A stretch of 55,215 nucleotides of DNA from Zygnema cylindricum (taxonomy: Eukaryota; Streptophyta; Zygnematophyceae; Zygnematales; Zygnemataceae), in the NCBI GenBank assembly GCA_037447655.1, contig JBBHKE010001445.1, positions 1-55,215 of the forward strand, read 5' to 3'. Shown here piece after piece: positions 29,475 through 54,501 of this stretch (position 1 is its first letter; the number at the start of each line of letters is the position of its first letter). Made by a program: the position numbers and the translations under genes. The notes under the pieces were generated by a model. The model ran no database searches, was not told the DNA's origin, and saw only the letters and a program-made list of their open reading frames with translations.

Positions 29475-29484
29475 NNNNNNNNNN
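29475..29484. other. Assembly gap (10 N)
   Basis: Ten N bases. Element E stops here without its 5' half. The true distance across the gap is unknown. Confidence 0.99.
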
Positions 29485-29849: not shown

Positions 29850-31754
29850 AAGTTTTGTTGTCATCTTCACGATTAACCGGACGACGTTTTCATTGGAAAT
29901 TTCCAACGTTAAAGCGGCGACGCATTATCGTCGCTTTTCGATTTCTCCAACATTTGCCGAAACTCGGATGTAATACCCTTAAATTCACACATTCAAGCGA
30001 CGACACTTTGTCGTCGCCGGTACATACGTTTAAACACAAAGCAAAGAGCTATTGGACGACGTTGTATAACAAGCCATCATAAATCCACGAGATCGTTAGA
30101 GGGAACAATATGGCATGGACAAACATGCAATATGAGGGGGATATAATCAATTTATAAATTATTGAATATGTAAAATTCAATTACAAACAATGGGAAATAG
30201 CGACACACAAATTAAGCGACCAAGGGTTGCTACATAAAGGTAAGGACAATGGATAAAACTCTTACTTGTACGATACCCCCCTCGAAAAATGTTGCGGAAA
30301 CTTCTTGACGGTCCTCGGGATGAGCAGATCCTTTCCATTCACGTGAAAATCGTCGATCATCCAATTGATTACCCGAAGTCGAGTAACCTTCGTTGACACT
30401 TGCTGGACTTTTCGAATCGACACTCGGACGTTCCCGTATTTATCACACAGTGGGTCCAAATTTCCGGTCACAACGCCTTCCACGAGGGGGTTTACGTCGG
30501 GTGATCCCCTTCCTTTGTTCGGTGGGTCTGGTCCTTGTGTTTTTGTACAATCCATGTTCTCATCAGTTAAGGGTGGTAATAAACCCGTCGTAGCGGTGTT
30601 TTTCGTGGCAAAAAAAGTGGTAATATGGGAAGTAATAGGCCACATATTGCAAATAATAGAGCTGATTTTTTGGCCAAAATATGATACAAAGCAAAAAATA
30701 GAAAAGCAAAAGCCAAGGTAACTGAAGGATACGGAAAGACAGTGTCATTGTTGGACCAAACGCCAGATATATATATCAAATAAAAAACCCAATTGCGGGA
30801 AAAAGGGAGGGAAACCATTCCCCATACTTTCGGTAGTCAAAATTTAAATTTAAATATTTTGCGTGACAACACCCTGTCCAAATATTTTTGACGACACAAA
30901 GAAGGCGAGAAAGTTTCAAAATTTTCGTCAGTTTTGAGAGGGGGTATGCACGTGATAAGCGACCGACAATTTTCATGAAAGAGCCATGTTAACTGCCTGC
31001 TTCTTAATGTACCTACGGATCAACTTTCGAATGGCGACGGGTATGACAGGCGCTTGGTGTCACGTCGTGTTGGAGGCGTAATGTTTGCGTGGGTATAAAA
31101 TTGTCCACGTGTAAATTTGGGCAACCAATCATGAAACACTTGAGACCAGGTGGTTAGTGAGATTGTACAGTTGGGACCAATTTAGAATAGGATTTTACTC
31201 TATTACGTCATTACATTAACGCTAATACCGGTCATAAGTTAGGGAGACAAACAGAAGTGCTTTCATTATAGAATTAACACACATTTTAGCATGAATTCAC
31301 GCTAAAAAGACAAACGTCGCGACATTATTAGAGTAAATAACCCTTATTACCGTACAATGTCGACGTAAAACGGAAAAGCGACCAACCGTTGAAACAACAA
31401 GCATTGTGTAATCGATACATTCGTAGAAATTACACTCCGTACAACTGTATCAAAATTGTATACATAACGGCAGATACCTGACGCCTAACTGCGGTGAAAT
31501 ATTCTGACATGCACGTTAAAATGATTTACACTTTTACGTGACGGCATACGATCTGAATTAAAATGTACGACTACTTTTATTACTGTAAGCAGGTTTGCAA
31601 CCGACATTTCATTATGTTAAAGACCAAATTAGCATTAGTAAACAATTAGAATGTATGTTTTTTCTTTAAATCCGAAATTCTTAAATAGCGTACACCATTG
31701 TAATCGGTTGTATACGCTAAATAAACTTCAACGCTAATAACGATTGACGGTGTA
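29850..31754 (-). mobile_element. Truncated DDE_1 transposon copy
   Basis: Its outer end is at 31754, where, in element sense, TACACCGTCAATCGTTATTA begins. The first roughly 180 bp match the right arm of the MITE at 36966-37506, and about 80 bp match the MITEs at 35175-35390 and 48959-49176. Exon 1 of the transposase lies about 1.1 kb inside. Beyond it the intron carries GACGAC hairpins (perfect one at 29997-30017, another near 29913-29930), and the copy is cut at 29850 by an LTR fragment. Exons 2-4 are absent. Confidence 0.72.
30266..30585 (-). pseudogene. DDE_1 transposase exon 1, orphan copy
   Basis: Encodes RKVQQVSTKVTRLRVINWMI, then DLLIPRTVKKFPQHF. This is collinear with exon 1 at 38959-39331 (HKVQ-type, VINWML, LIPRTLRKFPEHF). 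The splice donor after TACAA (GTAAGA, element sense) is at the same codon position as in the other copy. A plausible start is the ATG at 30553-30555 within MDCTKTQGPDPPNKG. The other exons are gone, so it cannot make a transposase. Confidence 0.7.
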
Positions 31755-32589: not shown

Positions 32590-33059
32590 CATATAACACT
32601 GTTGTCAGTAATTGTTTTTTCACATTAATATCGATTCACGGTGTTGTAAAGTTGTAGTCGTAGATGTCCTATGCGCATATAACGCACGGAGTAAACTAAC
32701 GATTACTACGTACAGTGCGCATCAATAAAATCCGTACCTTTCTTCGCATTGGTACAGTTACCGTACACTAACGTGCAGCGTTCGTATATGACAGCTCATA
32801 TTAGGGATATTTAAGGGTTTTAGGAGATGTTAGGGTTTTCAGTAGTGTTATGTATCAGTCAAAAATTTATCGCGATAACACCGATACCAATAGTTATCGG
32901 TTATCGAACGGTTAGAGGTCTCGATATATCGATCTAAGACCAACAAATTCCATATTGGCGATAACTTTAAAAATATATAGTATGCCTACAATATTACTTT
33001 ATAACATACTGTATTATATTATTGACTTTATAAAGTGTGGCATGCCACGTATAAGAATA
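32590..33059. other. AT-rich sequence with hAT-like debris
   Basis: The stretch 32845-32960 has the GTGTTATGTATC / ATATCGAT character of the hAT MITE family without clear paired ends. A worn TACACCG-type end (TCACGGTGTTG) is at about 32637. No coding sequence seen. Confidence 0.4.
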
Positions 33060-33361: not shown

Positions 33362-34112
33362 TAGAGGTCGCAAAAGTCAAAAAAAATCATACCCGAAACC
33401 GACCGTTTTTTTTTTCCAAATCTGAGTAACTGACGCCCATCCGAGTTTTGTCACGCCCCAAAATTGTTAACCGTTAACCGACCATCGTTTACGAAAAAAA
33501 AAGTTAACCGAATCTTGATTTTTCGGGACTAACCGTGCCAGCCCGTAACCGAAAAAGTACAAAATTAATCAATGTACGACGGAATAAGCCAATAATTACG
33601 ATTTGTCGCGTTCCCTAAGATTTGTGAAATAAATAGTGTTACTACCGTGTCAGATTTGCGACGCTTTATCGCGTTCCCTAAGATTTGCGAAATGAATAGT
33701 GTACTACTATGTCAAATTTGCGACGCTTTGTCGCATTGCCTAAGATTTGCGAAATAAATATTGTACTACCGTGTTAGATTTGCGACGCTTTGTCGCGTTC
33801 CCTAAGATTTTCAAAATGAATAGCTTACTACAGTTCCGTGTCATGTTTGCGACGCTAATCATGATGTCACGTACTTCCACGATGCCAAAGAGTACAAAGT
33901 ACAAGAATGTTGGATTATAGGCACAATACAAAATTTTCATTTTTTTGGTTTTTTGGTTGACCGACCGTAACCGACCGTTTTTTTTTTCCTGGTGAATCAA
34001 CCGACCGTAACCGCCCGACCCTCAAAATTTGGCAACCGAATTGGTTCCGGATCCGGCGCGGGCGGTCGGTTAACGGTCGGTCACGGTTTCGGTTGACTGT
34101 TTGCGACCTCTG
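33362..34112. mobile_element. Second hAT-type element (TAGAGGTCGCAAA family)
   Basis: The 751-bp element starts TAGAGGTCGCAAA and ends TTTGCGACCTCTG, inverted repeats differing only in the first base. The 8-bp duplication ACACGTGG is perfect (33354-33361 and 34113-34120). Subterminal ACCGACCGTTTTTTTT and CGGTCGGTTAACGGTCGGT blocks face each other. The centre is a tandem repeat. No transposase. It is a non-autonomous hAT. Confidence 0.88.
33598..33855. repeat. Tandem repeat of about 66 bp, four copies
   Basis: Units begin TTTGCGACGCTTTGTCGCGT and continue CCTAAGATTTGCGAAATGAA, then TAGTGTACTACNNTGTCA, with small length changes. The unit contains the same TTTGCGAC core as the element's terminal repeats, and GCGACGCTTTGTCGC is itself a hairpin. 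Confidence 0.8.
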
Positions 34113-34689: not shown

Positions 34690-35035
34690 TATTTTCTATA
34701 TGTCCTCCACTCCGTCTTCAGAAGGAAGCCGATGTTCGAGACGTTGTAAATTTCGGCGCTCGCCGCTAGTTTGTTGCACTTCAGTTTTGCACTTTGCTTC
34801 ATTTGCGTGGGTGTATTTTTATCTGAGCGGCGAGCCACGGAATTTATGGCGTCTCGCACGCGTATTTTTATCTGAGCGGCGAGCCGCAAAATTTATGGCG
34901 TCTCACACGCGTATTTTAATATGAGCGGCGAGCAGCAGAATTTATGGCGTCTCGCACGCTTATTTTTATCTGTCCTCCACTCCGTCTTCAGAAGGAGCTG
35001 CCGTTGGAGACGCCGTAAATTCCGGCGCTCACCGC
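34690..35035. repeat. Inverted and tandem repeat block with GGCGCTCGCCGCT core
   Basis: The outer copies at about 34699-34766 and 34972-35033 both read TCCTCCACTCCGTCTTCAGA...GGCGCTC(G/A)CCGCT. Between them, three tandem units of about 53 bp (GAGCGGCGAGCC...GAATTTATGGCGTCTCGCAC) are the reverse complement of the core. The block can fold into a long stem. Its class is unknown to me. Confidence 0.65.
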
Positions 35036-35174: not shown

Positions 35175-35390
35175 TACACCGCCAATCGTTATTAGCGTAG
35201 TGTACGCTAATTCCGTCCCGCTCTTTTTTTATTCTCAAATATAATTATCCATACTATTTAAAAAAAACCCTAATTTATAATTAGAGTAGACGATTTCTTT
35301 CAAAATTTTCAAATTCTTTATTAGCGTACACCACTGTAATTATTTGTATACGCTAAAGAAACTTCTACGCTAATATCGATTGGCGGTGTA
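35175..35390. mobile_element. TACACCG-type MITE, 216 bp
   Basis: The ends are TACACCGCCAATCGTTATTA and the complement of TACACCGCCAATCGATATTA, bordered by TA. Nearly the same sequence recurs at 48959-49176. Its right arm (read inward) matches the end of the truncated DDE_1 copy at 31754 for about 80 bp, so it is an internal-deletion derivative of that transposon family. Confidence 0.85.
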
Positions 35391-35438: not shown

Positions 35439-35978
35439 TACACCGCGAATCTTTATAAGTGTCAAAGTTTAAATAGTTTTGAAGAAAATTTACCGTAATA
35501 GATGCTAATTAAGAATTTGATTTTTTTTTTTTAAAAGGTGTATTCTAATTTCGGCGTTTATGCTAATTTGGGAACAGCAAAAATTGAATATTCGCCGTAC
35601 GTTTATACGCATTAACATATGTATACAAACAAAATATTAGAAATCGTACGCCGTCGCGAATTTATAATATCCGTACATGCTAAACTAATTTACGTGTCAG
35701 ATTAATCCCGTTTTTTGCAGTGCACGTTCCTATGCGTGCGCGTGTGGTTTAATTTATTTTTTTGTAAATTTTCACTTGAAAAGGTACAGTTGTGTACGGT
35801 CGGACATCGACCGTACACCACACTATTTATATTTTATTGTACTTTAGGGCTTTACTTTTTTTTGTACCTTAATTAACGTCAAAGAAAAATTAAAATCATG
35901 TATCCTATGTGAAAAAAAAAATGAAAATTTTAAGAACCCAAACTAGTGAATTTTACACTAATAACGTTTCGCGGTGTA
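35439..35978. mobile_element. TACACCG-type MITE, 540 bp
   Basis: The ends TACACCGCGAATCTTTATAA and, from the right, TACACCGCGAAACGTTATTA match the GTGAATCG subtype found at the ends of the large element (37518 and 48469). The interior is AT-rich, with ACGCTAATTTG-like motifs and no ORF. Target TA. Confidence 0.72.
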
Positions 35979-36965: not shown

Positions 36966-37506
36966 TACACCGCCAATCGTTATTAACGTTGTGTACGTTA
37001 ATTCCGTCCCGTTTTTTTTTTATTATTTCTCCATTAGTGTAGTTCATTCTATTTTTTTCTTTATTCTATTTAGGGTTATTTTTAGTACGTTGTATCTTAA
37101 ATAGAGTGGTGTACGGTCACTGTCAGACCGTACATAAATGTACATTTTTAAGTTAAAAAGTACAATAAATTAGTTTTAGTAACCTTGGACGCATAAGAAT
37201 GTGCGTTCTAAAAAGGAAAAAAAACCAGGTCGTAAAAAATCCCGCTCGCACATATTCGTCAGACAGCCGCGTTTCGACAGTGTGAATGTACGATTTGTGT
37301 ACAATTTGTCAGATTTTGTATGGAGACCTATATTAGTGTAAGCATGTTTGCGACCGACATTTTTTTTTTCAAAGATCCAAATTACCATAACCAAACAATT
37401 AGAATGTATGAATTTTTCCAAAATTTTCAAATTCTTAAATAGCATACACCACGGTAATTATTTTTATACGCTAAAAAAACTTACACGCTAATAACGATTG
37501 GCGGTG
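36966..37506. mobile_element. TACACCG-type deletion derivative, 541 bp
   Basis: The left end TACACCGCCAATCGTTATTA and the first roughly 50 bp match the 216-bp MITEs. The right arm matches the truncated DDE_1 copy for about 180 bp, including GTCGGTCGCAAACATGCTTA (there GTCGGTTGCAAACCTGC). The right terminus has lost its final TA (GGCGGTG, then GTCTG). It links the MITEs to the transposase-bearing family. Confidence 0.75.
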
Positions 37507-37517
37507 GTCTGTGCTGC

Positions 37518-37545
37518 TACACCGTGAATCGTTATTAGCGTATAG
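37518..37545 (+). repeat. Left terminal inverted repeat of the DDE_1 transposon
   Basis: Identical for 26 bases to the inverted sequence ending at 48469, then the two diverge. The first 20 bases are TACACCGTGAATCGTTATTA. The TA is probably target, leaving CACCG as the true end. Confidence 0.75.
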
Positions 37546-37669
37546 AAATTATTAGTGTATATAATGAATTAGTGTCATTTACGCTAATTTGTGTATCAAT
37601 ACCATTTTCAAAAAAATGTTTTATTGGAATTTCTCCATAACGCTGATTTGGGTATACATGATCCGTCAA

Positions 37670-37945
37670 CATAGCATATACAGTAAAATAGGTAGAAGTA
37701 CAAAATTTGACAATCCGTACGACGTGGCGTCCTTCCACTGTACAAAATCCATAATTCTATTTTGGGTTTGCGAATATAGAATCATTACACCGTGCATAAT
37801 TATACACTAAAATAGGTACGAGTAAAAACTGTCGAAATGTACGGTTATGTGTACTTTCACTTAAGTTCATTCGTGACTCTAATAAGCGTTTGTTTCGCAC
37901 GCGGTGAATATGATTACAGTAAAATAGGTGCGAGGACAACATAGG
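37670..37945 (+). repeat. Subterminal direct repeats (TAAAATAGGT)
   Basis: Three copies of a TACAGTAAAATAGGTRSGAG-like unit occur at about 37679, 37804 and 37917, spaced 113-125 bp, each followed by a GTAC-rich stretch. Subterminal repeats of this kind serve as transposase-binding sites in several plant DNA transposons. That role is an inference here. Confidence 0.55.
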
Positions 37946-38958
37946 ATGAAACGTACATTGTCGCGTCATACAGGCGATTCTATGCTTCGGGGTTGTAAAA
38001 CGCAGTTATCTCATAACGCTATGTAACCTACAACTAAAATACGTTCATTCATTTCAGTTTGTTATTGTGTATAGAACGCAACTATAGCAACAAGCATTCC
38101 ATGTTTATGTTTCGTTTCATATAACTTACAGTGAACCCAGCGATTGATTTTAATATCGTTGTCGTACGCGGTGAGAACGAGCGTTGTATGACGTTAAATA
38201 TGGACCCTTAACCTTAATAAGGTGCCCGGCGGCTTGCTTTATTAGAATTAATGTATTGTAATATTGGGACATAAGTGTATTAACGATACGTTTACTTAGA
38301 TCAGACGTCGAAAAAGCCTCTTATTAGTATCACTGTTAATTCTAATTGAATGTAAAACGAAGAAAAACCACTTTTTAGGAAACATGTTAATTCTAATTGG
38401 CGGTAATACGCCGACGAAAGATAATCAGTCGCCGTTGGAAGATTATCATTGGCTGTTGCCGAAAACACGTGGCATGTTTACTATCCACGCATTCTTAAAG
38501 TTGGTTAGTTTTCGTACGTGACGTTAGAACAACCGTTTTTCGGGGTTACGACGCCGCATTTTTTCCCATCATCTTTTTGCCGTACGCATTGTAAGCTGGA
38601 GGTCTTTCCATGGCGCTGACAACATTTCATCGACGACGTCAGTTTTCAAATTTTTTGCCAAATTGAAACATTTTTAGCGTAATCCCGCTTCTATTCCCGC
38701 GTTTTAAAATATTTTATAATTGAAAGGCATAATCAAGTTCAAAATTTGAACTTTTAACAAAAATTTTAAAATGGCAAATCCCTCCATTTTTACCGTGAAA
38801 ATTCACTATCGGTTGCATCTCGTGTATTATATAAATGTATTTGTGATGATGAGGACGACACTATCACCACCTCTTCCTCATTTGCTTGGGTTGCCATTTT
38901 CTTCCTTTGCAACAGCTCTTATTTCTTATTTTTTAGGTGATATTAAGGTTTTGAAATT

Positions 38959-39331
38959 ATGTGGACCCTTAATAGAATTTGGGGTGCCAACCCTGCCAAT
39001 AACATCAACAATCCACGCAACGCTCAGTCTGAACAAGATGAAAAAATGGAAAGGGTCAACGAGGAAATCGCATTTCAGAACGAGGAAGGGAGTGAGGCGG
39101 AAGTCGAAACCTCGGTTGACCCGGCGGCCATTGTGGAAGGGTTTTTTCCGTCCTCGGCCAATTCGAGAGGACGTGTTCCACACAGGAAAGTTCAACATGT
39201 GTCGACTAAGGTAACACGGCTGCGAGTTATAAACTGGATGCTGAGGGATTGCGAAAAAAACGGGTCAAAAGAACTCATTCCAAGGACGTTGAGGAAGTTT
39301 CCCGAGCATTTTACCGGAGTCTACAATACAA
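38959..39331 (+). pseudogene. DDE_1 transposase exon 1
   Basis: ATG at 38959 opens MWTLNRIWGANPANN, an acidic middle, then RKVQHVSTKVTRLRVINWML, ELIPRTLRKFPEHFTGVYNT. This N-terminal segment is typical of large DDE_1 transposases and probably contributes to DNA binding. The donor GTAAGC at 39332 leaves one base of a Lys codon. It pairs in phase with the acceptor at 43369, giving Lys-Tyr-Gln-Lys-Ala-Lys-Arg-Trp-Trp across the junction. The intron is therefore about 4 kb. Confidence 0.75.
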
Positions 39332-39655
39332 GTAAGCCATTTTAAACATACCTCATCCCATGTATTAAATGGTTTCGTCGAATCCTTCTTATTTTTTTAT
39401 TATTTCCATTCAGAATGCGGTGTTTTATTTTATTATTGTTGTGCTTCTAAAGTATTTGTACATTATTATGTTGGACCGCCGCCTTTACTTCTCAATCTAC
39501 ATCCTAACTTGTCATTGCCTCGCCATTAGTGCGTGTTTTTTTATGTTGTCGGTTGGTATGCATTGTCTTGTTATGTTTTTGTATTATTTTCATCGTGTCC
39601 TACGATTTTCTTGTGGGGACAACATATTAGCGCTGAAGGGTCTTTGTCGCGGTGT

Positions 39656-39911
39656 ATGCGACGACATCGTGTCGTCCCGTCAATGATGGGTACGACAAAT
39701 TCATTGAATGTATGAGGACGCCTCGTTTGGTCGAAAGTGCGAATGGCGGACGACAGTGGTTCGTTGTTTCGACTAAACCACCGACGACATCAGTTCAGTC
39801 AATCCAACGTTGGTATACTCGAATGTAATTCGCGGGCGTCGACGTTGTTTCGTCGATTCACTGTTGGGAAACGCGAATATATTTGAAAGCGCGACGACAT
39901 TGTGTCGTCGC
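39656..39911 (+). repeat. GACGAC hairpin cluster in intron 1
   Basis: Several inverted repeats occur on GCGACGACA / TGTCGTCGC: 39656-39678 (imperfect), about 39751-39800, 39833-39855 and a perfect 9-bp stem with 3-nt loop at 39891-39911. The same motif occurs in the matching intron of the truncated copy (29997-30017), so it belongs to the transposon and not to a chance insertion. Confidence 0.7.
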
Positions 39912-40098
39912 TTGGATGTCTGTTCTATAAGTTCGCATGGCCAACGGTTAAATTTTCCGTCGGTGAATAGTTGTCTACGTTTTTACAGCAGCACGATCTA
40001 AGTAAAGGTTTGACCAAAAGTGAGTCTTTTAGGTTGTTTTTTTCTCCCGTAATTGTGTATCTACTTTGTTTCCCGGGAAGCAATTGTTTTTTTTCTCC

Positions 40099-40740
40099 AT
40101 GGAGGGCGACCGACGACCATTCAAACGACTTCGCTCTGCCATTCAGCGACGATATCGTCCAAGACTAAATGAAACCGAGGTAGGGGGTCATATACCTAGA
40201 GGGGAGAATTTAGTGAGGGAAAGGGAGGCGGTTATAAAACAATTTAGGGAAGAAAGGGAGATAGCGGTAGGGGAGGATATTGAAAAAGAACATGAGGAAG
40301 GGGCGAAACTGGTCAGGGAGAAGGAAATAGAGGGGGCGGAAGAAAGGCAAAGTTTGGGAGAGGAGGCGGTTGGGCATGAGATACCGGGAGCGGAGGTGGT
40401 AGTTCGAGAGAGGGGGGCAACCGGAGGAGTATTAGGGAATAGGGTTGAACCGGAGGAGGGTGGTGGGTAAAGGGTTGGAATGGAGTTGGTTTTGATGGAG
40501 GGGGAGGAATCGGGTGCCGAAATAGAGGCGATGGAGGAATCGGAGGCGGTGGGGAGGGGAGGGACGAGGACGGAGAGGGTAGTAAGGAGAAGTGTGCCAG
40601 AGGGGGGGATTCTGGATGAAGGGTTGGAGCCGAGGAAGAAGGTGTCCGGGAAGTAGAAGGAGGTAAGGAAGAAGACGAAGAATACGACCCCTCGGGAACC
40701 GCGTCGGACGAGCCTATAGAGGACGGGGAAGAGCCTACGA
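40099..40740 (+). pseudogene. Accessory ORF in transposase intron 1, first part
   Basis: ATG at 40099 (context CTCCATGG) opens MEGDRRPFKRLRSAIQRRYR, a basic N-terminus, followed by about 100 residues dominated by Glu, Arg, Val and Gly (REREAVIKQFREEREIAVGE...), probably helical or disordered. A TAA at 40468-40470 and a frame change near 40640 interrupt it, after which EVEGGKEEDEEYDPSGT continues to the solo LTR. I do not recognise the family. Its place inside a transposase intron, same strand, suggests a second transposon protein. Confidence 0.5.
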
Positions 40741-40751
40741 AAGAGGGGGAT

Positions 40752-41992
40752 GAAACTCTGAGACCTCCATTGGCCCTCAGAGTATGCAGATCCAAAAGAA
40801 GCTAATCTAGATAGTGCCGACTCCAAGTTAATATAAACCCAAGTGACTGACCCCTTTACAGTCAGAACCCCAATATAGATTCACCCCTGTGAAATAACAC
40901 TTTCTGTGTGGTCAGTTCCACCACAGAATGCAAAGTTAGAATATGAGATTTGGACACATTCACCCACTTTGACTTTCCCTTTGAAATGCAGCCACCCTGG
41001 CAGACAAAAACTCTGACCGACTACACCCCTGTGTAGCCTGGACTCCCCTGAGTCCGCAGCAAAAAGAATCACTGAAAATAGTCAAGTAAATTGATAGTTA
41101 TGGCTGGCCAAAGTTTGCCATTTATACAGGGTGCTCTCAGGGAGAGGCAGCTGCCTACCCAAAATTTTCTAAGTCCTATACCCTCTCTAAAACTCTATCT
41201 ACTGAAGTACGGCACTAATCAAATTACTGTGTCGTACAGAAAAGTACAGGTGCCGGTGTACTTTCTGTACGGCCATTGTACGACATGGCCAAAATGTCGA
41301 CACGTGTAAAATCAGGATTAGTTCCTGTAATCTCCGGAATTCCCGTAGTCCAATGTTATCACGCCACGTGTCACATGACGTGACAAAGACCGTAAAACGC
41401 CAAAAATGCCTTTTCCGTGATCGCGGCGCCTATCGTGGCCGTACGATCAAGACCGGCTATAACCGTAGCCGCTGAAATTCGACGCGCGGTATTTGTTTCA
41501 CTATCGAAACAAATGCGCGGTATTTGTTTCGCTGTCGAAACAAATGCGCGGTATTTGTTTCGCTATCAAAACAAATGCGCGGTATCCGTTCTGCCCCCAT
41601 TCCGTACTTCGTACTAAATTAAACTGTATCTATGTACTAAGTATCTATTAGCCGTTAAACGGATTAATCTATATATAACGATTTATATATTTGTTAAACC
41701 CTATATATCGTAATATCTGTTCTAGACATAACGGCTAGAGCTAACGGCTAACGCGGATTGATGGACGGTAGGCACCAGGATCAATTCCTGGGTCCGTCAA
41801 CTAACTTTTGGTAAGACTACATAATTTACCCCCTGTCTTCTCTAGAGAGCCTAGGCAGCCATGGCTCTAGCTCCCTATCCAGCCTTCAGTGACTACGACA
41901 AGTATGGGGGCTTGGAAAGGGGAGTTAGAGGCAGACCGCCTCAGCTCTTTTTCTATCCTAATACAGACCTATAAAATACTCAAATATCAACA
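40752..41992 (-). repeat. Copia solo LTR inserted in the accessory ORF
   Basis: 1241 bp, plus-strand bounds TGAAACTCTGAG and CAAATATCAACA, with perfect duplication GGGGA (40747-40751, 41993-41997). Removing it restores one reading frame (EEPTKEGE joined to VPEEIDSSD). It keeps the gag ATG at its inner end (complement of 40766-40772 area) and the tRNA-like module at 41725-41800 (plus strand). It carries an expanded hairpin array at about 41487-41586. Confidence 0.93.
41487..41586. repeat. Hairpin triplication in the solo LTR
   Basis: Three tandem units of 31 bp, each reading GCGCGGTATTTGTTTCGCT then ATCGAAACAAAT, a palindrome around TTTGTTTCG...CGAAACAAA, followed by a fourth GCGCGGTAT. Other LTRs in the window have one such hairpin (for example 18541-18580). 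Probably an upstream promoter element that has expanded. Confidence 0.75.
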
Positions 41993-41997
41993 GGGGA

Positions 41998-42818
41998 AGT
42001 GCCGGAAGAAATCGATTCGTCGGACATTCCGGTGACGAGATACGAGGACGATCGGACAATCTCGGACGAGCAATCTTCGGAGAGCTCGGAGAGGCGCATG
42101 GAGGAAGAATATGGAGACGAAGATGAGGTCGTTGCTTTTCCTCCTTCACCGAACCACGAAAGGGCTATCGTGACGGTACAACCACCTCAAATTCCGGCCG
42201 ACCATGATGTTTCCATTCGAGAGGAAGAACCCGATTGGTTTTTTCCGCCTCCCGTCGGAGATGAGGCCATGGATGGCTTCCGACCATCGGCGGCCCACTA
42301 TATCCCGGTCAAGGAGTGGCCGGACTATTGGCGTTATGGGGAGGCTCGGCCTCTCGTACGGAATTTGAACCCCGTCCCGGAAATTCTAGACATCCCTCCG
42401 GATGTCCCCCGCCCACCCAACATGGTTGTACATCGCATCGTACAACCATGCTTCAAATTTCCCTTACATTAGGCATTTTCAGCCTAATGATGATCGTTTT
42501 CCATGGATTGTACGTCCACCGATCGCATTCGAAATCTATGTGCCCGAATTAATGCGGCATTATCACCCTTGGGATCCACGATTATTCACCATTCTACGTC
42601 GTGCAACTCGTACTCCGGAGCTAAACGAATTTTTAGAGGCTCGAAGTGCGGTTTTACAACGCTTCCGAAATTTGCAAGTGAGGCGTACGTACCTTTGGGA
42701 AATTCCGAGGGTAACACATGTGGATGAGCCCCCTCCACCGCCAGAATTGGAGCAATTGAGGAATGAAGTTGAAAATCTCAATCGGCGGGTCGATGAGAGA
42801 GGTTCGTCCCTTGATTAA
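41998..42818 (+). pseudogene. Accessory ORF in transposase intron 1, second part
   Basis: Continues VPEEIDSSDIPVTRYEDDRT through an acidic stretch to a more ordered segment: VKEWPDYWRYGEARPLVRNL, VPEILDIPPDVPRPPNMVVH. A frameshift near 42430-42460 leads to FQPNDDRFPWIVRPPIAFEI, YVPELMRHYHPWDPRLFTIL and a C-terminal heptad-like helix (ELEQLRNEVENLNRRVDERG) likely to form a coiled coil. The Trp/Pro-rich ordered region and constant reading direction argue that this was a real protein. Function unknown. Confidence 0.55.
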
Positions 42819-43079
42819 TAATCTCACGCGAGAGCTTGCAAGAATTAGGCGTCGTTGATGCGAGATGATGAAGGTCAATTTCATGGCCTTAATTCGACAA
42901 AGAGGTATCCCGGTTTCTCCCTCACCCTACATTGCATGTCCCAATGTTTTTTTTGTTTTTTATTTTTTCCATACATGTATAAATTTAATATATCTCTTCC
43001 ATTTCCTAGCCTTGTGAATGTAAATTTAACTTTAACTCTTACCTTTGGATTTGCTGATGTCGGCATTGTGTTTGATAGT

Positions 43080-43260
43080 TTTCATTCCCGGTTTAACGAC
43101 GAGACAGGGTCGTCGCTGAACTGTCGAATTTTCATTGGTGGTCGGTAAACGACTACGTATCATCGTCGTTTACGAAAAAAAATGTCAATTCGTTGATTTA
43201 ACGATGACTTTCTGTCGTCGCTGATTCAACGAGAGTAGCACTTCGTCGCTAAATATTCCC
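43080..43260 (+). repeat. GACGAC hairpins at the end of intron 1
   Basis: Sequences of the type AACGACGAGACAGGGTCGTCG (about 43096-43116), CGTATCATCGTCGTTTACG and GATGACTTTCTGTCGTCGCT recur three to four times. They match the hairpin type at 39656-39911 and 45620-46370. Confidence 0.6.
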
Positions 43261-43369
43261 GCATCTCTTTACTGTCACTTTAATTTGCTATATTGCTTAC
43301 GATTGTGACTAATGAAGTGACACACATAATGAAACTCATTTAATTCTTTACATTGTGTATTGTGTACAG

Positions 43370-43849
43370 AGTATCAAAAGGCCAAGCGATGGTGGATAGA
43401 GAGGAGGAATACGCTCGACGGTATATGAGAGACAACCTGCACATTCTTTTCTTCTAGTTTCGGGAGGAGATCGGTGGCGGTTACCAAGGCTTTGCCGGGA
43501 CGAGGAAGGAAGGAAGCCGCTTGGGTGACAGTTATACACGAAGAGTTACTTTCCGATTTTGAACGTTTTAAGAAAGCTGGTATGAAGATGTCCACCACAA
43601 TTCTCGGGGATATCGCTAGGGACATTATAAGAGAAAGGAGGAAAGAGTACGGACCGGAATGGTTCAACAAGGACGGGTCCGAAATACATCCGGTAATAAA
43701 TAAAAGGTGGGTGCAACGGTGTCAAGAGAAGCACAACATCGTTGTGCGGGCACAAAAGGGTAAACTACAATGCTCACCCGAGAAAGAGGAATACATTGAG
43801 CGTACCGTGGCCTTCCACATGGGCGTGCTGAAGCGAGGGTTTGAATCCG
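43370..43849 (+). pseudogene. DDE_1 transposase exon 2
   Basis: Begins KYQKAKRWWIERRNTLDG, then a TGA (43426-43428). It resumes at KALPGRGRKEAAWVTVIHEE, LLSDFERFKKAGMKMSTTIL, INKRWVQRCQEKHNIVVRAQ, KGKLQCSPEKEEYIERTVAF, HMGVLKRGFESG. This is the helix-turn-helix and linker region preceding the DDE core in large DDE_1 transposases. Donor GTGAGT at 43850, phase 1, fits the acceptor at 43995. Direct identity to known family members is from memory of the conserved pattern, not a search. Confidence 0.85.
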
Positions 43850-43995
43850 GTGAGTCACTCTACATTATCAAAATATTATAATGATGGTTCATTTTTTTGA
43901 AATGTGTTTTGTTTTCGTTGTATTCCCTATTTAACGACATATACTAAAAAAGTATGAAATTTGCTTGTTTTGGTTTGCCGTTGCATGTATACTAG

Positions 43996-44247
43996 GAATT
44001 TTCAACGAAAACCTTGTGGAAAACATGGATGAAACACACGTGATCGTCAACACCGACAATGGAGAGACTTTGGGATTTTGAGGGGATGATGTGGTGAAAT
44101 ACGCCGACGTCGCGGGAGGAGGTGAATCCATGACTCTCATGGTGCGAATAACTGGTGGGGTGAACGCTCGTATCGAAAACCCAATGATTATTTTTGCAAA
44201 TCGTTGGAGGAGTTACCCGATACAAGGTTTACCGGACACCGTCTTGG
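43996..44247 (+). pseudogene. DDE_1 transposase exon 3
   Basis: Reads GIFNENLVENMDETHVIVNT, where the Asp of MDET is the first catalytic residue. Then DNGETLGF, a TGA (44079-44081), GDDVVKYADVAGGGESMTLM, VRITGGVNARIENPMIIFAN and YPIQGLPDTVLG. Donor GTGAGT at 44248. The stop truncates any product before the second catalytic Asp. Confidence 0.88.
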
Positions 44248-44581
44248 GTGAGTTTTTTCTCCCAAATCTAATGTTTTCATTTTTATTTTGATGTATGTTT
44301 GTCTTTCATGAAGGTCCCTCTATTTATCTCCATCTCATATTTCTGTATAATCTTATATGTATATCTCTCTACTTCGCCCTCTCATACCTCCTCCCTCTCT
44401 CTCCCACTACAAATTTACGTTATTTTCGTTCATTAGCTCTCTAACTTCTCTTATCTTAAACAATGACTCCTATTACAAGCTACCTATGGTACACGTAGAT
44501 TACTTTCCCCATAAGGCAAATTTACGCAAGCAAAATAAAAATTTAATTTGTCATCTATTTGTTGATTTTTTATATTTTCAG

Positions 44582-45258
44582 GTGTTTGTTACCGGACCGG
44601 TCCAAAGGGTTGGAACGACAAAACGGTGTTCCCACAGTGGTTCGAAGAGACAAGGTCTTATCAAGGGGATTGGGAAGGACGACAAAAAATCATGTTATTG
44701 GATAACTGTGGAGGTCATAATACGTCCGATGAGTTGGAGCGAGTCTTGGAGGCCAAAAACACCGTTTTACACTATTTTCCACCTAATGCTACGCATCTTG
44801 TTCAACCGGCGAACTCTTTTGTCATCTCTAAAATCAAAGACGTGTGGAGCCGTATATGGGACAGCTGGAAGGCGAAAGGAATTGAAACCGAGCAAAAGGC
44901 TAAACCTTCGAGCCGTGGATGGTCCGGAAAATTGGTGGGACCCGGTAAAGCATTTTTTCTAAAATTGGCACGGGATTCTATCCGAGAGGTTAACGCGATG
45001 CGAGACAAAAACGGGATGAGTTACGCACGAAAATCAATGATTCAATGTGGCCTGTCTTTACGCGACAACCGGTGGGAAGAAGACATGCTCACACATCAAT
45101 TGCAAGACATAATCACCAAGTATCGCAACCACTTCGAAGGAGAGGTTGTGGAACCTCCTTGCCCAAGGGCAAGAGAATTCCTCCGAAATATTGAAGATGC
45201 CGACATTCAGCAAGATAACATTTTTAGCGAGGGAGGGATGAGCGGCAACGAGTTTTAA
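44582..45258 (+). pseudogene. DDE_1 transposase exon 4
   Basis: After TTTTCAG, GVCYRTGPKGWNDKTVFPQW leads to KIMLLDNCGGHNTSDELERV with the second catalytic Asp, then TVLHYFPPNATHLVQPANSF. The family's third Asp, expected in the QPxD position, is Asn here (codon AAC, 44812-44814). VISKIKDVWSRIWDSWKAKG and a C-terminal helical region follow, ending at TAA 45256-45258. Cut-and-paste transposition in the nucleus would be the role of an intact protein. Confidence 0.9.
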
Positions 45259-45599
45259 AGATATAATATAACTACGTATTGTTTTTTTTGTTTTTAATGT
45301 TAGTTTGAGAATGGTAGTTTAATTATAGCGGGAGTAGTAGTCATACTCGTGGCAAAATAATGTAGACGGTCCATAAAGTTTAGTATTAATTCACTTCTTG
45401 GGAAAAAACAAATTTTATATGTGTGTATGGTTTTATTATGGGATAATAAATTTCGTATTTCCGAAGTTTACATGTTTGGCTTAATGTGGAATTGGATGTA
45501 TTTATGAAATTTATTATGTATTTACCTTGAGGTGATGTTAATGTGGTGTTAAATATTTGAGTGTACGTGTAGTATGGAATTATATATATTGCTGCATTG

Positions 45600-46375
45600 A
45601 ACACCCTAAACTAATCAGCGACGAGTATACTTTGTCGTTGATTCATCATCCATCGAGGAAGTTCATAATTTGTACCGCATTTTCACGTCCATAATTAATG
45701 ATTGCCCTTTCAGCGGCGAGAATTTCTCGTCGCTGGATGGAGATCCAGCTTTTGAAACTGTTTGAGCATGACCTTCGACGATGTAGAGACTGTGTCGTCG
45801 CTGGATGAAAATCCAGCTTTGAAACTGCTTCAGCATGACTTTCGACGATGTAGAGACTCTGTCGTCGCTGGATGAAAACCCAACAGCGAAATTGCTTCTG
45901 CATCATCTTCGACAAAGCAGAGGCTGTCTTGTCGTTGGATGGAAATCCAGCTTTGAAACAGTTTCTGCATCATCTTCGACGATGCAGAGAGTGTCTTGTA
46001 GCTGGATGGAAATCCAGTTTTGAAACAGTTTGTCTCGTCGCTGGATGGAAATCCAGCTTTGAAACAGTTTGTCTCGTCGCTGGATGGAAATCCAACTTTG
46101 AAACAGTTTGTCTCGTCGCTGGATGGAAATCCAGCTTTGAAACAGTTTGTCTCGTCGCTGGATGGAAATCCAGCTTTGAAACAATTTTTGCATCGTCTTC
46201 GACAAAGCAAAGGCTGTGTCGTCGCTGACTGGAATTCCAGCGGCGAAAGTGAATCATCATTATCTCCGACAAAGCAGACATTGCCTCGTTGCTGAATGCA
46301 AATCATGGAATTTATTGTAACGTTGTTTGTCTGATCGCATGGCTTTACAGCTGCGAGTTTGGTTCGTCGCTGGTC
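45600..46375 (+). repeat. Minisatellite of GTCGTCGCTGGAT hairpin units
   Basis: About five units of 65-67 bp (from 45731) are followed by five of 39 bp (about 45995-46190) and a last diverged unit. Each carries the stem-loop GCTGGATGGAAATCCAGC next to TCGTCG. The long units add a second hairpin around CATCTTCGACGATGCAGAGA. Short units look like long ones minus that block. Placed 3' of the transposase, probably in its 3' region. Confidence 0.85.
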
Positions 46376-46933
46376 CGTGAACCTTCAGTTTACATATTAG
46401 GTGGATATTATTAAAGCTCTGAACAAGTAAGAAGGTTTTTACCATGGCAAAAATACCGATTTTGACAAGGCTGAAACCATAAAAACTGGATTGAATGATG
46501 TAAGCAGAATCTTCCATGTTGGAAACGCACAGTTCAAGTAATATACGCGGTGATAAGAAAGATTAATGCATATTTTCAACATATGAAGATGATACACAAA
46601 CGAAAAGACACCGAGATTTAATATATTCCAATGCGAAAAAGTCATCGGTACAACATGAAAGCAATTAAAAAAACACACAATTAATAAAAATATATATACT
46701 AAGTTGACACTAATAAAATCATTGATTAATAACAATGGGAAAAAAAAAACAAAATTTGTATATTTCACGATGATATCGTTTTCACAACGTTAAACTAAAA
46801 CAAAAATATAGGCCTATTAATCTACAATATTCAACAAAGCTCTATGTACTAACATAATTCTTAACGTTTCTACCTCTAGCTCGAAAATCCCCTAAAAAAT
46901 AATTTAACAACTTGGTAATATTACACACACTAA
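46376..46933. other. AT-rich sequence without genes
   Basis: The minus-strand ORF across 46439-46768 encodes a Phe/Leu-rich string typical of T-rich noncoding DNA. I see no motif or splice structure that supports it. Confidence 0.4.
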
Positions 46934-47170
46934 CTAATTAGCAACGATCGGTGACGACACATACAGATCTATGCAAAGCTCCTCAAGGTTTACTCCCGAA
47001 ACTTTCATCCTGTCTAACACCTTCAAAATGATGCTTTCTTCTTCCCTACAATCACATGTTGCCGTAGGGTGCTCCCCAATATAATGGCCGTCGGATAGAA
47101 GTTGATCAAATATGACAGTTTTACATACGAAAGAGAGAGGAAGATAACGGATTAATAGGGGGTATATGGG
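46934..47170 (-). CDS. Unrecognised possible terminal exon
   Basis: A 78-codon open frame follows the acceptor-like TTTGTTTAG (element preceded by a pyrimidine-rich tract) and ends at TAG 46934-46936. It reads, in part, KTVIFDQLLSDGHYIGEHPT, ATCDCREEESIILKVLDRMK, GVNLEELCIDLYVSSPIVAN, which has balanced protein-like composition unlike the surrounding shadows. A possible first exon lies upstream: MKGFW followed by GTAAGT (minus strand, about 47455-47470). Family unknown. It could be a transposon gene or a captured fragment. Confidence 0.3.
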   Translation of the reverse strand, partial: PIYPLLIRYLPLSFVCKTVIFDQLLSDGHYIGEHPTATCDCREEESIILKVLDRMKVSGVNLEELCIDLYVSSPIVAN

Positions 47171-48440
47171 CTAAACAAATAAAACGAGAAAAATGACGGA
47201 CAGAGAGAGACGGAACAGTGAGAAGGGAATGAGAGAGAAGATTAGAGAAAGGGTATGGGACAAAATGGGTGAGAGAGAGAGGGGAGAAGAGATTGACGGA
47301 GAATGGTAAGCAATTGAAATGGGAAAGAATGTGAGAGATAGGCAATGCAAAAATGAAGAGGTAAAGGGATTAAAAGGGTTAGAGAATGAAAAAGGTGGAA
47401 GAATAATAAGGTACAGGGAGCGAAAGATATGAAAAAACATGGTGAAATGCGCACTTACCCAAAAACCCTTCATAAACCCTATAATTTATAGCGACGGTAA
47501 TGGCGCGATTCCTCTTGTTGTTTCGACATATTGTTGTGTACCCTAATACTGTTGTAAACCCTAAAATGAGGTATGGAGTCGATGGATGTCGCGAGACTCA
47601 GCGAGGCGGCGGGGAGACGATCCGTATCTTGCCGAAAAAATGGCGGCGTCATGTGAAAATGGCTCTGCGAGATTCTGAATTCACCCACCAGAGGACGAAG
47701 ATGTGGTTGGGATTAGTCAGAACACAAAATCTATTTTTTGTGTTCTCTCCGCATTTGCCGTTGGTTTGATATCAATTGCCGTTTTCTAGGCGCCGCTTTT
47801 CTTCAATCCTAAATTTTGTAACTTTACTCTAATTTTTTTACAATGTGACAGTAATTTGTTGTCGTTTTGTGAAACATTACCCATTTTAGGGTCAAACTTA
47901 ACTCTAATAAGCTTCTATTTGGTTTAAAGGTCTGGTATTACCGTTATGTTTCTTTTTGACCCTGTAATAGTGTAAATATATACACTATTATTTTTGCAAT
48001 ATCTCAAATAGAGTTTATACGGCAACGTATTAGACTTAACTCTAACGCGACGATGAACATGTGTAAGTACGCAACATTACGCTTACGTAACATGGACAGT
48101 TATTACCATGTGCACATGTTATCCGTTCACACTATAACACACAAAAACGAACGTCTGAATGTATGCGAATGTTTATTTTGCAAACTCGACTCAACAATTT
48201 TTGTAAGCGCAGCTATGTATGCGACCGACATAAGATAACCACAAATTCCGTACGGATTCCGGTAAAGAAGTACAATGTTGTACTATCAAACTACTTCCGT
48301 ACACCACACTATTCATGCATTCAGTACGGTCATACCATTGACGCTAATTTGCAAGTACCGCATTTAATGTCAAAGATAAACTAGATTCAATCACTGTATT
48401 TCGTGTATCAATGTCAAATTTCGGGGTGCCGATATAGCGT
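47171..48440. other. Right part of the DDE_1 element, no gene seen
   Basis: Pyrimidine/purine-rich to 47470, then AT-rich with many GTACGNT words. A small GCGACGGTAATGGCGC spot at about 47492 recalls the hairpin arrays. Short ORFs lack support. ACGCTAATTTGCAAG at about 48338-48353 matches the subterminal ACGCTAATTTG of the left end. Confidence 0.4.
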
Positions 48441-48443
48441 ACA

Positions 48444-48469
48444 ATACGCTAATAACGATTCACGGTGTA
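48444..48469 (-). repeat. Right terminal inverted repeat of the DDE_1 transposon
   Basis: Read inward from 48469, the 26 bases equal those starting at 37518, followed by TGTACGCTATATCGG. The flanking dinucleotide is TA on both sides. Confidence 0.72.
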
Positions 48470-48958: not shown

Positions 48959-49176
48959 TACACCGCCAATCGCTATTAGCGTTGTGTACACTAATTCCAT
49001 CCCGATTTTTTTTTTTAATTCTCAAATATAATTATCCATACTATTTAAAAAAACCCTAATTTATAATTAGAGTAAACGATTTCTTCGAAAATTTCCAAAT
49101 TCCCAATTAGCGTAAACCACGCTAATTATTTGTATTCGCTAAAAAAACTTCTACGCTAATAGCCATTGGCGGTGTA
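48959..49176. mobile_element. TACACCG-type MITE, 218 bp
   Basis: Ends TACACCGCCAATCGCTATTA and inverted TACACCGCCAATGGCTATTA. Internally almost the same as the copy at 35175-35390, including ATAATTATCCATACTATTTA and CCCTAATTTATAATTAGAGT. The flanks also share CTG outside the TA. Two near-identical copies 13.6 kb apart point to recent amplification. Confidence 0.88.
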
Positions 49177-50520: not shown

Positions 50521-50660
50521 ATGGCCCCCTAGCCCCCATGGGAGGCAGCGACTTGGCGCCCCCCCCCTCTAGCCATGCTCGCTGCTCGGGACCACGTGGC
50601 ATTCCCTCCGCAATGCGCGCGTCCAGCCAAGCAAACGCGCCAGCTGGCGCCTTCACATGA
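50521..50660 (+). promoter_or_regulatory. Two upstream ORFs before the GRF start
   Basis: A minimal uORF ATG-GCC-CCC-TAG lies at 50521-50532. A second ATG at 50538 opens 40 codons to TGA at 50658-50660, out of frame with and overlapping the main start at 50575. If both are in the mRNA leader they should lower translation of the GRF or favour a downstream start. Confidence 0.5.
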
Positions 50661-52057
50661 TCTCTCAGCCTCTCTCCTTCTGAACCCCTCCACGGGTCTT
50701 CACGGCTTCCCTCCCTCTCCTCCCTCTCCCTCCCCCTCCGATAGTGCATCCGAGGGCATCTTTGAACTACCCCCCATCTCCACTCCCTTCCTCCCTCTCC
50801 CTCCCTCTCCCTCCCTCTCCTTCCCGGATCCCAACGCCTTCTGGGAAGCTGACAGCTGGCTCATTGAGACTCGCTCTAAACCTATGCCCATTACCTCCTC
50901 TCACTCACTCCCCTCCGATCAATCCCACCAATCCCACCCTTCCCTCCCTTCCCTCCCTTCCCTCCCTTCCCTCCCTTGCCGCCCTTCCCTCTCCCCCCTG
51001 GACTGCCGCATCGTCTGCCTCGACCGCGCCGCTCGCTCCGATCCCAAAATCGACGGCTCGGATCGCTCGGATCCAGACAAAAAAAGTCAAAAAAGTAAAA
51101 AGAGGTGCGGGTGGCCTTCGGCCGGAGAGAGGTCCCCCGGAGAAGGCGCGTCCGAGGTAGTCCAGGCTGACGTCAGCAGCTTCGAGGTTCCTTCCGGAGG
51201 TGCCAGCTGGCAGATGAACAGAGACCCATTACAGCTGGCACCCTCTCCTTCCCTCCCTCCCCCTCAGAGCAGCAATCTGCATGGCATCGATTGGGACGAT
51301 CTAGGGCTGCTGGTGAAGCAGGAGCCCGGCCTCGACTTCCACCGACACTCGGGGGGGTCCACCGAGGGAGGCTTCGGCGTCTCTCTCTCTCACTTGTCCC
51401 CCTCCGCCGAAGGAGTAGAATTGCCTTTCCCCTCTCCCTCCTTCTTGGAGGATGTGAAGCCGACACTTGGCGACATCTCGGAGGATCCGCACAGCTGGCA
51501 GAGCGCGGTGATGCGCCAGCTGGCACTTCAGAACAGCTCTTACCTCCACCCCCACCAGAATCCGACTCATCATCAGGAGGGATCAGTAGAAGGACACGTG
51601 GCAGCATCTGGTGACTCAGAGCAAGTACATTTGTCAGCATTGTTCTCACACCATCACCAGCAACCTCCGGGAAGCTTGCAATCCACGCCTCAGGTTAAAT
51701 TGGAGCAGCCCTCCTCGTATCCTTCCTCCTCTCCCTACCTTATACAGTCTCTGTCCCCTCCCCCGGGACACCAGCTCCACCATCAGCTCTCCTTCCCTCC
51801 CTCCGCCCCTACTTCCTCTCTCCGCCCCCCTCCCAACAGGCGCCAGGTGGCAAGCACTGCCCCTCCCCAACTCTGGACTCCCATTGGCCGGAGCGCCTCC
51901 TTCTCCGGAGCCACCTCTCTCACTCGGAGCTCCGGGGACAGCTGTCAACTCTCCTCCTCCCCCTCCGCCCGCAGTCTTCCTCGCTCGGATTCCTCTCTCT
52001 CCGTCATATCTGGGGCCATGTGGCCGGGGGGGGGGCATTTGCACACCTCGCCTGGAG
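50575..52057 (+). CDS. GRF: GRF exon 1 (long N-terminal extension)
   Basis: 494 codons with no stop. Low-complexity Pro/Ser repeats include a 9-bp tandem repeat (50937-50975 area) coding [12 protein letters not shown] basic cluster [10 protein letters not shown] near residue 165 could be a nuclear localisation signal. [15 protein letters not shown] near 237 and QVKLEQPSS near 372 are acidic/hydrophobic patches containing psi-K-x-E sumoylation-type motifs. Gln/His-rich segments recall activation domains. Donor G|GTGAGG at 52058 matches in phase the acceptor TGCAG before 52663. The open frame past 52057 is intronic CT-rich sequence. Confidence 0.75.
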
Positions 52058-54441
52058 GTGAGGACCAGGGATCTCTCTCTGTCCTCATTTTGTCCTGTCT
52101 TTACTTCTCTCTCTTGCTCTCGGTCCTCTCTGTCACGCTCTCACACTCACACTCTCTATCTCTCCGTTTCTCTGTCTCTCTCTCTCACCATTGTTGTCTT
52201 TCACTCTCTGATGCGGTTTCCCTCTCTACCTCTTTTATCTCCTCTCACTGTGGCTCGTTCTTTCTCTCAAAACTATAGTAATGTTCTTGTGATTTTGCGT
52301 GCTTCTTTTTCTCTCTTACGCTTGAATTCCTTCTTTTTGCCTGGTTTTTGTCCTTATCTCCATCCCTTCTCTCCACCCCTTCTCTCACATTCTGTCTTAC
52401 CTCCACAGTTTTTGTCCAGCCTCTCTTAACATTTTTTGTGCCTCCTTAACTTCCCTCATCCTGTCCTTCTCATCACTCTTTCTTTACCCGTCTCCCTCTT
52501 AGGTCCCTCTATCTCACCCTCACCCTACCTCTCTCTCTCACACTCATCAGTATGCAGCCAGTTACATTCTCCACTAACGCCCTACACCTCTCTTCCCTTC
52601 CTCTTCTTTTCTCTCCACTGATTCCATCCTTACTCTCCCTCCCTCGCTCTCTCTAGCTGCAGGTCTCACTGCTCTCTCTCTATCCCCCTCCGAGGCTCTT
52701 CTCCATCACTCCGAAGATACCAACCGAGCCTCTCACGGCGGCCGATCTTCCCCCATAAACCGACAGCATCCACATCAACAAGGACACGTGTCACTTTTTG
52801 GAGGAGACCTTCCCTCCACCCCCTCAGACCGTCTGGATCCTGCATTTGGCAACAATTTTATGGAAATTCATGGCACTTCCGCAGGAGGAGGGAGAGGAGG
52901 AGAGACTGTCTCGGGGCAGTATGAGGCACTAGGGTCCAAAATGGGACAGCTGTCGTCTTCCTGGGCCCCATTTAGTGTAGCCCAATGGCAGGAGCTCGAG
53001 CAACAAGCTCTTATTTTTAAGTATTTAGTTGCAGGAGCTCCGGTTCCTCCGGACCTTGTGAGGGCTTTGAGGATCTCTGCAAATGCTAATATGGCGGCTT
53101 TGCCTCGACCGTATCAACATAGTAGGTCTTCTATTTTTGGTTTTTGGTTAAATTTTATCTTTTTGGGTCTGGCTAAATTTTTTCATTTAGGTTTTCAATA
53201 GTTTTTCGTTTTTTTGGTTTTGGTGAGGTTTCTCTTTCTGGTTTTGTTTAAGTTTTGATTTTTTGGATAACCGACATCAGTAGGTTTCGGGTTTTTGGTG
53301 AAACAAAATAGGGGGTTTTGTTAAGAGTAAATCTTGTTTCGATCGATTTGTTTTTTGTGGAACTCGTTTAATTATTCTGGATGAGTGGATAGTTTTTTTT
53401 TTTCGGTTATGTATGTTCCATGGGTTTGTTCTGGTTTTTTTTTTTCAGGATGTGTGAGAGAAAGGGAGAGGGAGGGGGTTTTTACTTGATTTGTATTAAT
53501 TTGTGTTGAACTGGGTTTTTTCCATTTTGGATAGGTTCCTGGAATCAAATGGGGCAAGTAGACTTGGAACCAAACCGGTGTCGAAGAACAGATGGAAAGA
53601 AATGGCGATGCTCAAGAGAGGTCAGTTTCTGTCTTGTTTTTTGTTTTTTTTTTTGTTTTTCTTATTTTTGTTTTGGTTAACCTTAAGACTTTCTACCTTC
53701 AGACCTATAAGCCTGTCTAAGACCTGAATGTTTTACCGAGCTTAAACCCGGGTTCAAAAAAATTTACTTCCGGAATGTCCCTGTTCCCAAAATTTCAAAT
53801 AGAACAAAAACTTTAGTTCCTTTATTATAAAGTAAACTATTTGTCCTCCATAATGTCCCACATTGCCATAGCTCGACTACGATCCCAAATCAGATCGTAC
53901 TCTCGCACAGTCTCTCTCTCTGTCTCTCTCTCCCCTCTTCCTTACCTTTTCTCTTTCCCTCTCCCTTCCCTCTTCCTCCCTCCCCCTTTCTCCTCCCTCT
54001 CCAGCTTTCGCTCACCAGCTCTCTCTCTCTCTCCTCCAGGTTGTCCCGGAACAGAAATACTGTGATCGTCACATGCATCGCGGTCGTCACCGTTCCCGTA
54101 AAACTGCCGAAGCTCCTCCTCCCACTCCCTCTCCCTGCTCCCCTACCTGCTCCAGCGGAGCCTATGGCAGCCATGGAAATGGGACAGGTGGCGCCTCCTC
54201 GGAGAAGGTGACAGCTGGAGGGGGACAGCCCCCCAGGGATAGAAAGAGAGCGGCTCCGGGAGGGGCACCAGGGGGACCGAATACGAGGACGGTCTCTCCC
54301 TCTTCGAATTTGATGGGACAAACTTTCTCTCCCTCCACTGGTCCGGAGGGGCCCGGTGGTATACACCGAGGAGGATTAGTGCCTCTGTCGGCACTTTCTA
54401 CTCGGAGGAATGAGTGAGTTGTTCTCTTTCCCTCTCTCGCC

Positions 54442-54501
<60 letters not shown>

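Follow-up and report, generated by a model that had tools for sequence, protein, structure and literature searches.

A probable Mover-like pogo transposon of Zygnema cylindricum, decayed and with the remains of a second gene in a transposase intron

What kind of mobile element occupies positions 37518-48469 (plus strand) of a 55,215-nucleotide stretch of the Zygnema cylindricum genome (GenBank contig JBBHKE010001445.1; positions 1-55215 of contig C1080 in our numbering; hereafter, the window), and how is it related to the truncated copy and the miniature inverted-repeat transposable elements (MITEs) around it? The original prediction, made from the letters of the window, described a 10.95-kb candidate autonomous transposon with a DDE_1 transposase, a broken sister copy and non-autonomous derivatives of the same element. 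Comparison with the 352.8-Mb genome assembly leads us to a different picture. The element is very probably a decayed copy of a high-copy, Mover-like transposon of the pogo superfamily that has a four-exon DD36D transposase and, in intron 1 of several lineages, a second open reading frame (ORF2) under selection. We denote the lineage of the window element A.

The element is bounded by terminal inverted repeats at 37518-37543 (plus strand) and 48444-48469 (minus strand), each including the TA. As predicted, the start at 37518 and the inverted end at 48469 are exactly alike over 26 bases (29, counting the flanking TGC/GCA), and both ends sit at TA. The 20-mer of this A-type end occurs at 2,324 places genome-wide (1,185 + 1,139), compared with 10 (3 + 7) for a reversed-pattern control. 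A search of the genome with exon 4 of the transposase, in which the best 150 of 787 candidates were scored, yielded two copies among the closest, C1750 and C1156, that were retrieved. C1750 has the left end and most of the interior in common with the window element and a different right end. The C1156 copy, on which the further-copy check proposed with the prediction succeeds, starts and stops at the same bases as the window element, spans 9,692 bp from end to end and has about 95% identity to it (95.6% in the left part and 94.7% in the right part), the sole large gap being window 40751-41992. Many family ends lie close by within the window, and the ends at 37518 and 48469 might on that account belong to different elements paired by chance. 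The C1156 copy, a single unit in which both ends and the contents recur and for which an empty paralogous site exists, rules out such a composite, and we attach almost no probability to chance pairing.

The gap in the alignment with C1156 corresponds to a 1,242-bp segment that starts with TG, ends with CA, is flanked on both sides by GGGGA (a 5-bp duplication at 40746-40750 and 41993-41997) and resembles long terminal repeat (LTR)-like repeats elsewhere in the window. On these grounds, we read 40751-41992 as a nested solo LTR, which is absent from C1156. The predicted ends are real, and the predicted size is that of two elements: as inserted, the transposon is 9.7 kb long, and the remainder of the 10.95 kb is the solo LTR.

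The target site can be read from empty paralogous sites, for which the flanks of an element were joined around one TA and matched against the genome. The joined flanks of C1156 match 122 bp of contig C611 (L051) at 82%, across the junction and with a single TA. The empty site of one of the local MITEs (MITE1, 35175-35390) lies within the window itself, at 32634-32725 (83%), also with a single TA. The expectation of single-TA empty sites is thereby borne out for these two family members, both of which are inserted at TA with duplication of the TA. Most joined-flank matches are artefacts of neighbouring ends; of three alignments inspected, those of C1156 and MITE1 were accepted, and the match of the window element was discarded, being its own flank. 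At 38 family ends from the retrieved loci and the window, the TA is preceded by A at -2 in 26 and by G or C at -1 in 32. Thus, two pogo features are present, namely, short inverted ends (26 bp) and TA target duplication (at the C1156 and MITE1 empty sites). The 3' non-coding part of the element contains 67-bp and 39-bp tandem arrays (45718-46187) that have counterparts in C1156 and C1750. Searches of a plasmid collection and of Rfam gave no match.

All four exons of the predicted DDE_1 transposase are present between the ends, on the plus strand. Exon 1 (38959-39331) encodes the N-terminal part, exon 2 (43370-43849) the putative DNA-binding part, exon 3 (43996-44247) the first catalytic Asp, and exon 4 (44582-45258) the DDE_1 domain, with the second catalytic Asp and with Asn in the third position. 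The Pfam DDE_1 match has an E-value of 2e-13 for exon 4 of the window copy and 9.7e-13 for the C1156 transposase, and the junction of exons 1 and 2 agrees with a continuous protein from Fragilaria (P0001). In C1156, the four joined exons make a single, uninterrupted open frame of 593 residues, with Asp at all three catalytic positions and 36 residues between the second and the third (DD36D). In an alignment of 46 rows (C1156 and 45 database relatives), the first Asp is present in 45, the second in 46 and the third in 42; among the 30 of 45 relatives in which the spacing is readable by motif scan, it is 36 in 29 and 37 in one. The dN/dS of the transposase between C1156 and another copy, C2459, is 0.135. 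With hmmscan, no DNA-binding domain scores above the Pfam cut-off in the transposases of the window and C1156, the best helix-turn-helix matches being below their cut-offs: HTH_Tnp_Tc5 scores 13 bits in window exon 2, where 22.2 would be needed, and is absent from the C1156 listing.

The prediction that the window element is itself a candidate autonomous transposon fails. An in-frame TGA in exon 2 (43426-43428), another in exon 3 (44079-44081) and the Asn that replaces the third catalytic Asp exclude autonomy; judged by these lesions, the window copy is dead and no working transposase could come from it. The uninterrupted transposase is that of C1156.

Among the 45 database relatives of the transposase are proteins from Fragilaria, Spongospora, Phytophthora, Chondrus and the moss Ceratodon, as well as many unnamed proteins. 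The part of the survey by Gao et al. (2020, PMC7386202) on which we draw describes the Mover family as uniformly DD36D, with a DNA-binding domain undetectable by hmmscan, and reports it from one red alga, five stramenopiles and one rhizarian. Both features recur in the present transposase, and its named relatives, from a diatom, Rhizaria, an oomycete and a red alga, with a moss in addition, mostly represent the host groups of that account. By these diagnostic features the element fits a Mover-like assignment, in a comparison whose tree carried no Mover references. The original statement that no described plant family has such ends accordingly needs amending to the extent that there is a described family, Mover, close to which the element can be put (PMC7386202, in the part used). 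In a tree of 50 rows built without outgroup families, the five lineages from this genome, three of them represented by exon 2 alone, cluster together (100/99) in the vicinity of the Fragilaria group. The element differs from Mover and from the superfamily as characterized in the same part of that survey in its streptophyte host, four-exon transposase, ORF2 and length of 9.4-9.7 kb. The pogo range given there is 1.20-5.20 kb, and both C1156 (9,692 bp) and C1387, the reference for a second lineage, B (9,419 bp), lie outside it; this range is descriptive, not mechanistic, and the Mover host range, which a streptophyte likewise falls outside, is a distribution and not a definition.

Intron 1 of the transposase contains ORF2 (40099-42858, plus strand; traced by alignment and by tblastn pieces between 40099-40751 and 41993-42855), which the solo LTR, frameshifts and a stop disrupt in the window copy. 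Elsewhere in the genome, ORF2 encodes about 446-509 amino acids on the same strand as the transposase, and it is open in C2459 (446 amino acids) and C186 (506 codons read, stop-free). The order exon 1 - ORF2 - exon 2 is found in six copies (the window element, C1156, C1750, C1387, C2136 and C2459); ORF2 followed by exon 2 is found in C611, C368, C1324 and C535, where the retrieved stretch did not show exon 1. Two of the ORF2 matches without a listed exon 4, those in C186 and C2459, were considered as possible ORF2-only elements and rejected as such: C186 is a 5' fragment that comprises just exon 1 and ORF2, and C2459 looks like a full element whose exon 4 is divided between frames. Among 14 copies chosen without regard to ORF2 (the window copy included), nine have it, four lack it and one (C1331) is uninformative. 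Genome-wide there are at least 150 ORF2 matches: each of the best 150 candidates, out of 1,175, matched on scoring. In 58 of the 150, a listed exon 4 follows ORF2 on the same strand at a distance of 1.07-2.51 kb, and the control arrangements (exon 4 upstream; opposite strand) occur in 0 and 0 of 150 at the distances tested, among the matches listed.

Is ORF2 a gene of the transposon or a passenger? Over ORF2 codons 250-506 in eight copies, dN/dS ratios (Nei-Gojobori, own script) range from 0.199 to 0.408 in all 28 pairs, which are non-independent and in many of which dS is near saturation. For C186 and C2459, dS over these codons is 0.39 and the ratio is 0.21; over the whole of ORF2, the ratio is 0.26 at a dS of 0.45. 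By these ratios, ORF2 appears to be under purifying selection in several lineages. The predicted protein consists of an acidic low-complexity N-terminal half, a conserved core with motifs common to three lineages, PDW(F/Y)FPPP, IPPDV and HPWDPRL, and probable C-terminal helices. An AlphaFold2 model of one window piece (42408-42794), computed without an alignment, has a mean pLDDT of 54 and was not used for a fold search. Were ORF2 a captured host gene or a transduplicate, passively carried, its absence from some lineages and its presence on two tree branches that also hold ORF2-less lineages would follow readily. Set against such an origin, which we consider quite improbable, are the purifying selection across lineages, the position fixed relative to the transposase wherever both are listed, and the outcome of searches for a source: residues 260-508 have no homolog at E <= 1e-3 among 1,204 protein-database candidates, ORF2 has no Pfam match over the cut-off, and its best PDB match does not improve on E 0.26, so that a known domain was rejected.

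Several observations weigh against the interpretation of the element as a Mover-like transposon with a selected ORF2, or are weak points in its support. Four of the 14 copies (C2462, C1560, C1064 and C1109, with introns of about 0.48, 1.4, 0.49 and 2.6 kb, respectively) lack ORF2 in intron 1, so that ORF2 is not needed by the whole family, and 92 of the 150 ORF2 matches have no exon 4 among the matches listed. In the lineage B copy C1387, exon 1 is interrupted by two stops and the main frame of ORF2 is preceded by an apparent frameshift; in C1750, other sequence takes the place of part of ORF2. Between the window element and C1156, the dN/dS of ORF2 is 0.59 (1.08 and 0.53 in the shifted frames), so that no selection is visible at that depth, as expected for post-insertion decay of the copies. 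The grouping of lineage A with C2462 is supported at only 92/49. Finally, the family membership is argued from diagnostic features, with a tree that had no Mover reference sequence, and DD36D is not diagnostic by itself, as it overlaps the spacings given for Lemi (DD29-42D) and Tigger (DD29-36D) in the part of the survey used (PMC7386202).

The last of these points bears on the alternative placement of the transposase, in Lemi or in an unnamed pogo clade. In the same part of the survey, Lemi, found in 23 eudicots, is the only pogo family given for land plants (PMC7386202), and pogo elements are reported also from the club moss Selaginella in the part of Dupeyron et al. (2020, PMC7325037) that we used. 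The present element resembles Lemi in being a plant pogo-type transposon with a spacing inside the Lemi range; it differs in that HTH_Tnp_Tc5, given for Lemi (PMC7386202, same part), is below the cut-off. Together with named relatives that come mostly from the host groups of Mover, this difference speaks against the alternative, which we consider improbable, and we retain the Mover-like assignment.

The distribution of ORF2, present in lineages A and B as well as in C2136 and lacking in C2462 and C1560, would require at least two changes on the tree, by losses or exchange, the branch that joins A and C2462 being weak. Synonymous divergence (pS) is lower in ORF2 than in transposase exon 2, at 0.50 vs 0.76 for C1387/C2136 and 0.67 vs 0.85 for window/C1387. 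This pattern could fit an exchange of ORF2 between lineages, with codon usage as an alternative.

What could such a protein do? Selection and fixed placement together suggest that ORF2 served the element, presumably as an accessory protein. Its most likely role, at somewhat less than an even chance, would be that of a partner or regulator of the transposase; a role as an anti-silencing factor comes next and is rather unlikely, and other roles make up the rest. In En/Spm, two proteins are produced from one promoter by alternative splicing, and ORF2 could by analogy consist of alternative transposase exons, with ORF2 and exon 2 as alternative splice partners of exon 1. Such an arrangement would fit what is found in all six copies that show exon 1, ORF2 and exon 2 together, where ORF2 is located within intron 1 and shares the strand of the transposase. 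The ATG of ORF2 is kept in the aligned copies, however, and reading by eye revealed no in-frame acceptor just before ORF2; we regard alternative splicing as a doubtful option, albeit one to be taken seriously. For the accessory gene, the broader scenario would be that of a two-component pogo transposon, in which the transposase would work with an otherwise unknown partner whose gene is nested in its intron 1; this gene would be a module that lineages have gained, lost or exchanged and that went along as Mover-type elements spread in a streptophyte. We consider this scenario evenly poised.

The family assignment and the empty sites suggest that the transposase would bind the ends and move the element by cut and paste at TA, and that the MITEs would be moved in trans. 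The Lemi and Emigrant pogo elements of eudicots have a TA target and MITE derivatives. Second proteins that aid movement or counter silencing are a feature of other plant transposons, namely, TnpA alongside TnpD in En/Spm and VANC in VANDAL; the transposases of these elements are unrelated to the present one, and any resemblance of ORF2 to their proteins would lie in its putative role. Extra genes are also a feature of the ciliate TBE and Tec elements, which belong to the Tc1/mariner group and carry open reading frames beyond the transposase. These differ in having a DD34E transposase, additional genes for a zinc finger protein and a recombinase, and ciliate hosts, according to the part of Dupeyron et al. 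(2020, PMC7325037) consulted. Our searches of open-access literature found no ORF2-like gene of pogo elements, and, as far as those searches go, a conserved second protein would be new for the superfamily. Because some copies in the genome have ORF2 and others lack it, comparing them could test whether it acts in transposition or in evading silencing. Moreover, the occurrence in a streptophyte of a Mover-like family with many copies, one of whose database relatives comes from a moss, would widen the range of Mover beyond that given in the part of the account of Gao et al. used here.

How, then, are the neighbouring copies related to the window element? The truncated copy at 29850-31754 (minus strand) is real, with a TACACCGTCAATCG end and a relative of exon 1 at 30283-30564, and is a 5' fragment of a lineage B element, which an LTR-like end cuts off at 29849; it is not the close sister that had been proposed. 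The lineage B reference, C1387, has the ends TACACCGCCAATCGTTATTAGCGT / TACACCGCC, and its protein identity to C1156 is 40% in exon 1, 61% in exon 2, 80% in exon 3 and 75% in exon 4. The B-type end 20-mer occurs at 2,537 places genome-wide (control, 9). Among the first 100 B-type places listed, there are 32 adjacent +/- pairs less than 1.5 kb apart, which fall at 216-223 bp (14), 533-547 bp (14) and other distances (4). Six exon 4 copies, in C183, C1387, C1653, C1796, C2158 and C2343, have the same score (357.8 bits) and 72% identity to that of the window, and may represent a recent burst of lineage B.

The three predicted MITEs are likewise real and belong to the two main size classes: MITE1 (35175-35390) and the MITE at 48959-49176 to the ~220-bp class, and MITE2 (36966-37506), in which the right-end TA is changed, to the ~542-bp class. 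Their first ~24 end bases are common to those of the window element save for two or three differences, as would be expected had they been derived from an autonomous window element. All six MITE ends nevertheless fit lineage B better, with 78-94% identity over 62-202 bp compared with 73-91% over 35-74 bp for lineage A; at the right end of MITE2, the values are 94% over 176 bp and 73% over 70 bp, respectively. With the end of the truncated copy, lineage B has the best score for seven of seven ends. This comparison rules out the MITEs as derivatives of the window element, and, with the two stops and the lost catalytic Asp of the window copy, renders the reading of an autonomous element with its local derivatives very unlikely. 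Cross-mobilisation of the MITEs by lineage A is possible. A further 540-bp unit, at 35439-35978, has family-like ends that fit both A and B poorly, and is perhaps a MITE of a third lineage.

The rest of the window belongs to other sequences. Positions 1-29849 are a nest of Ty1/copia-type retrotransposon pieces with many LTR-like repeats, among which an RVT_2 domain is found at 27800-28492 on the minus strand (E 4.2e-25); a gap of 10 Ns lies at 29475-29484. Between the truncated copy and the MITEs are a 62-bp and a 49-bp tandem array (33598-33831 and 34813-34972). Downstream of the element, at 50533-54961, is a growth-regulating-factor (GRF) gene with CT-rich microsatellites around it. Its exons encode the QLQ (E 3.7e-15) and WRC (E 2.6e-7) domains, and its 18 relatives, at 34-50% identity, include proteins from Closterium and angiosperms as well as three Gb_ entries, which we take to be Ginkgo. 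Of COX1, two short fragments came to light. To our knowledge, GRF genes are confined to streptophytes, and the presence of one, with both domains, on the same contig as the element points to a streptophyte host.

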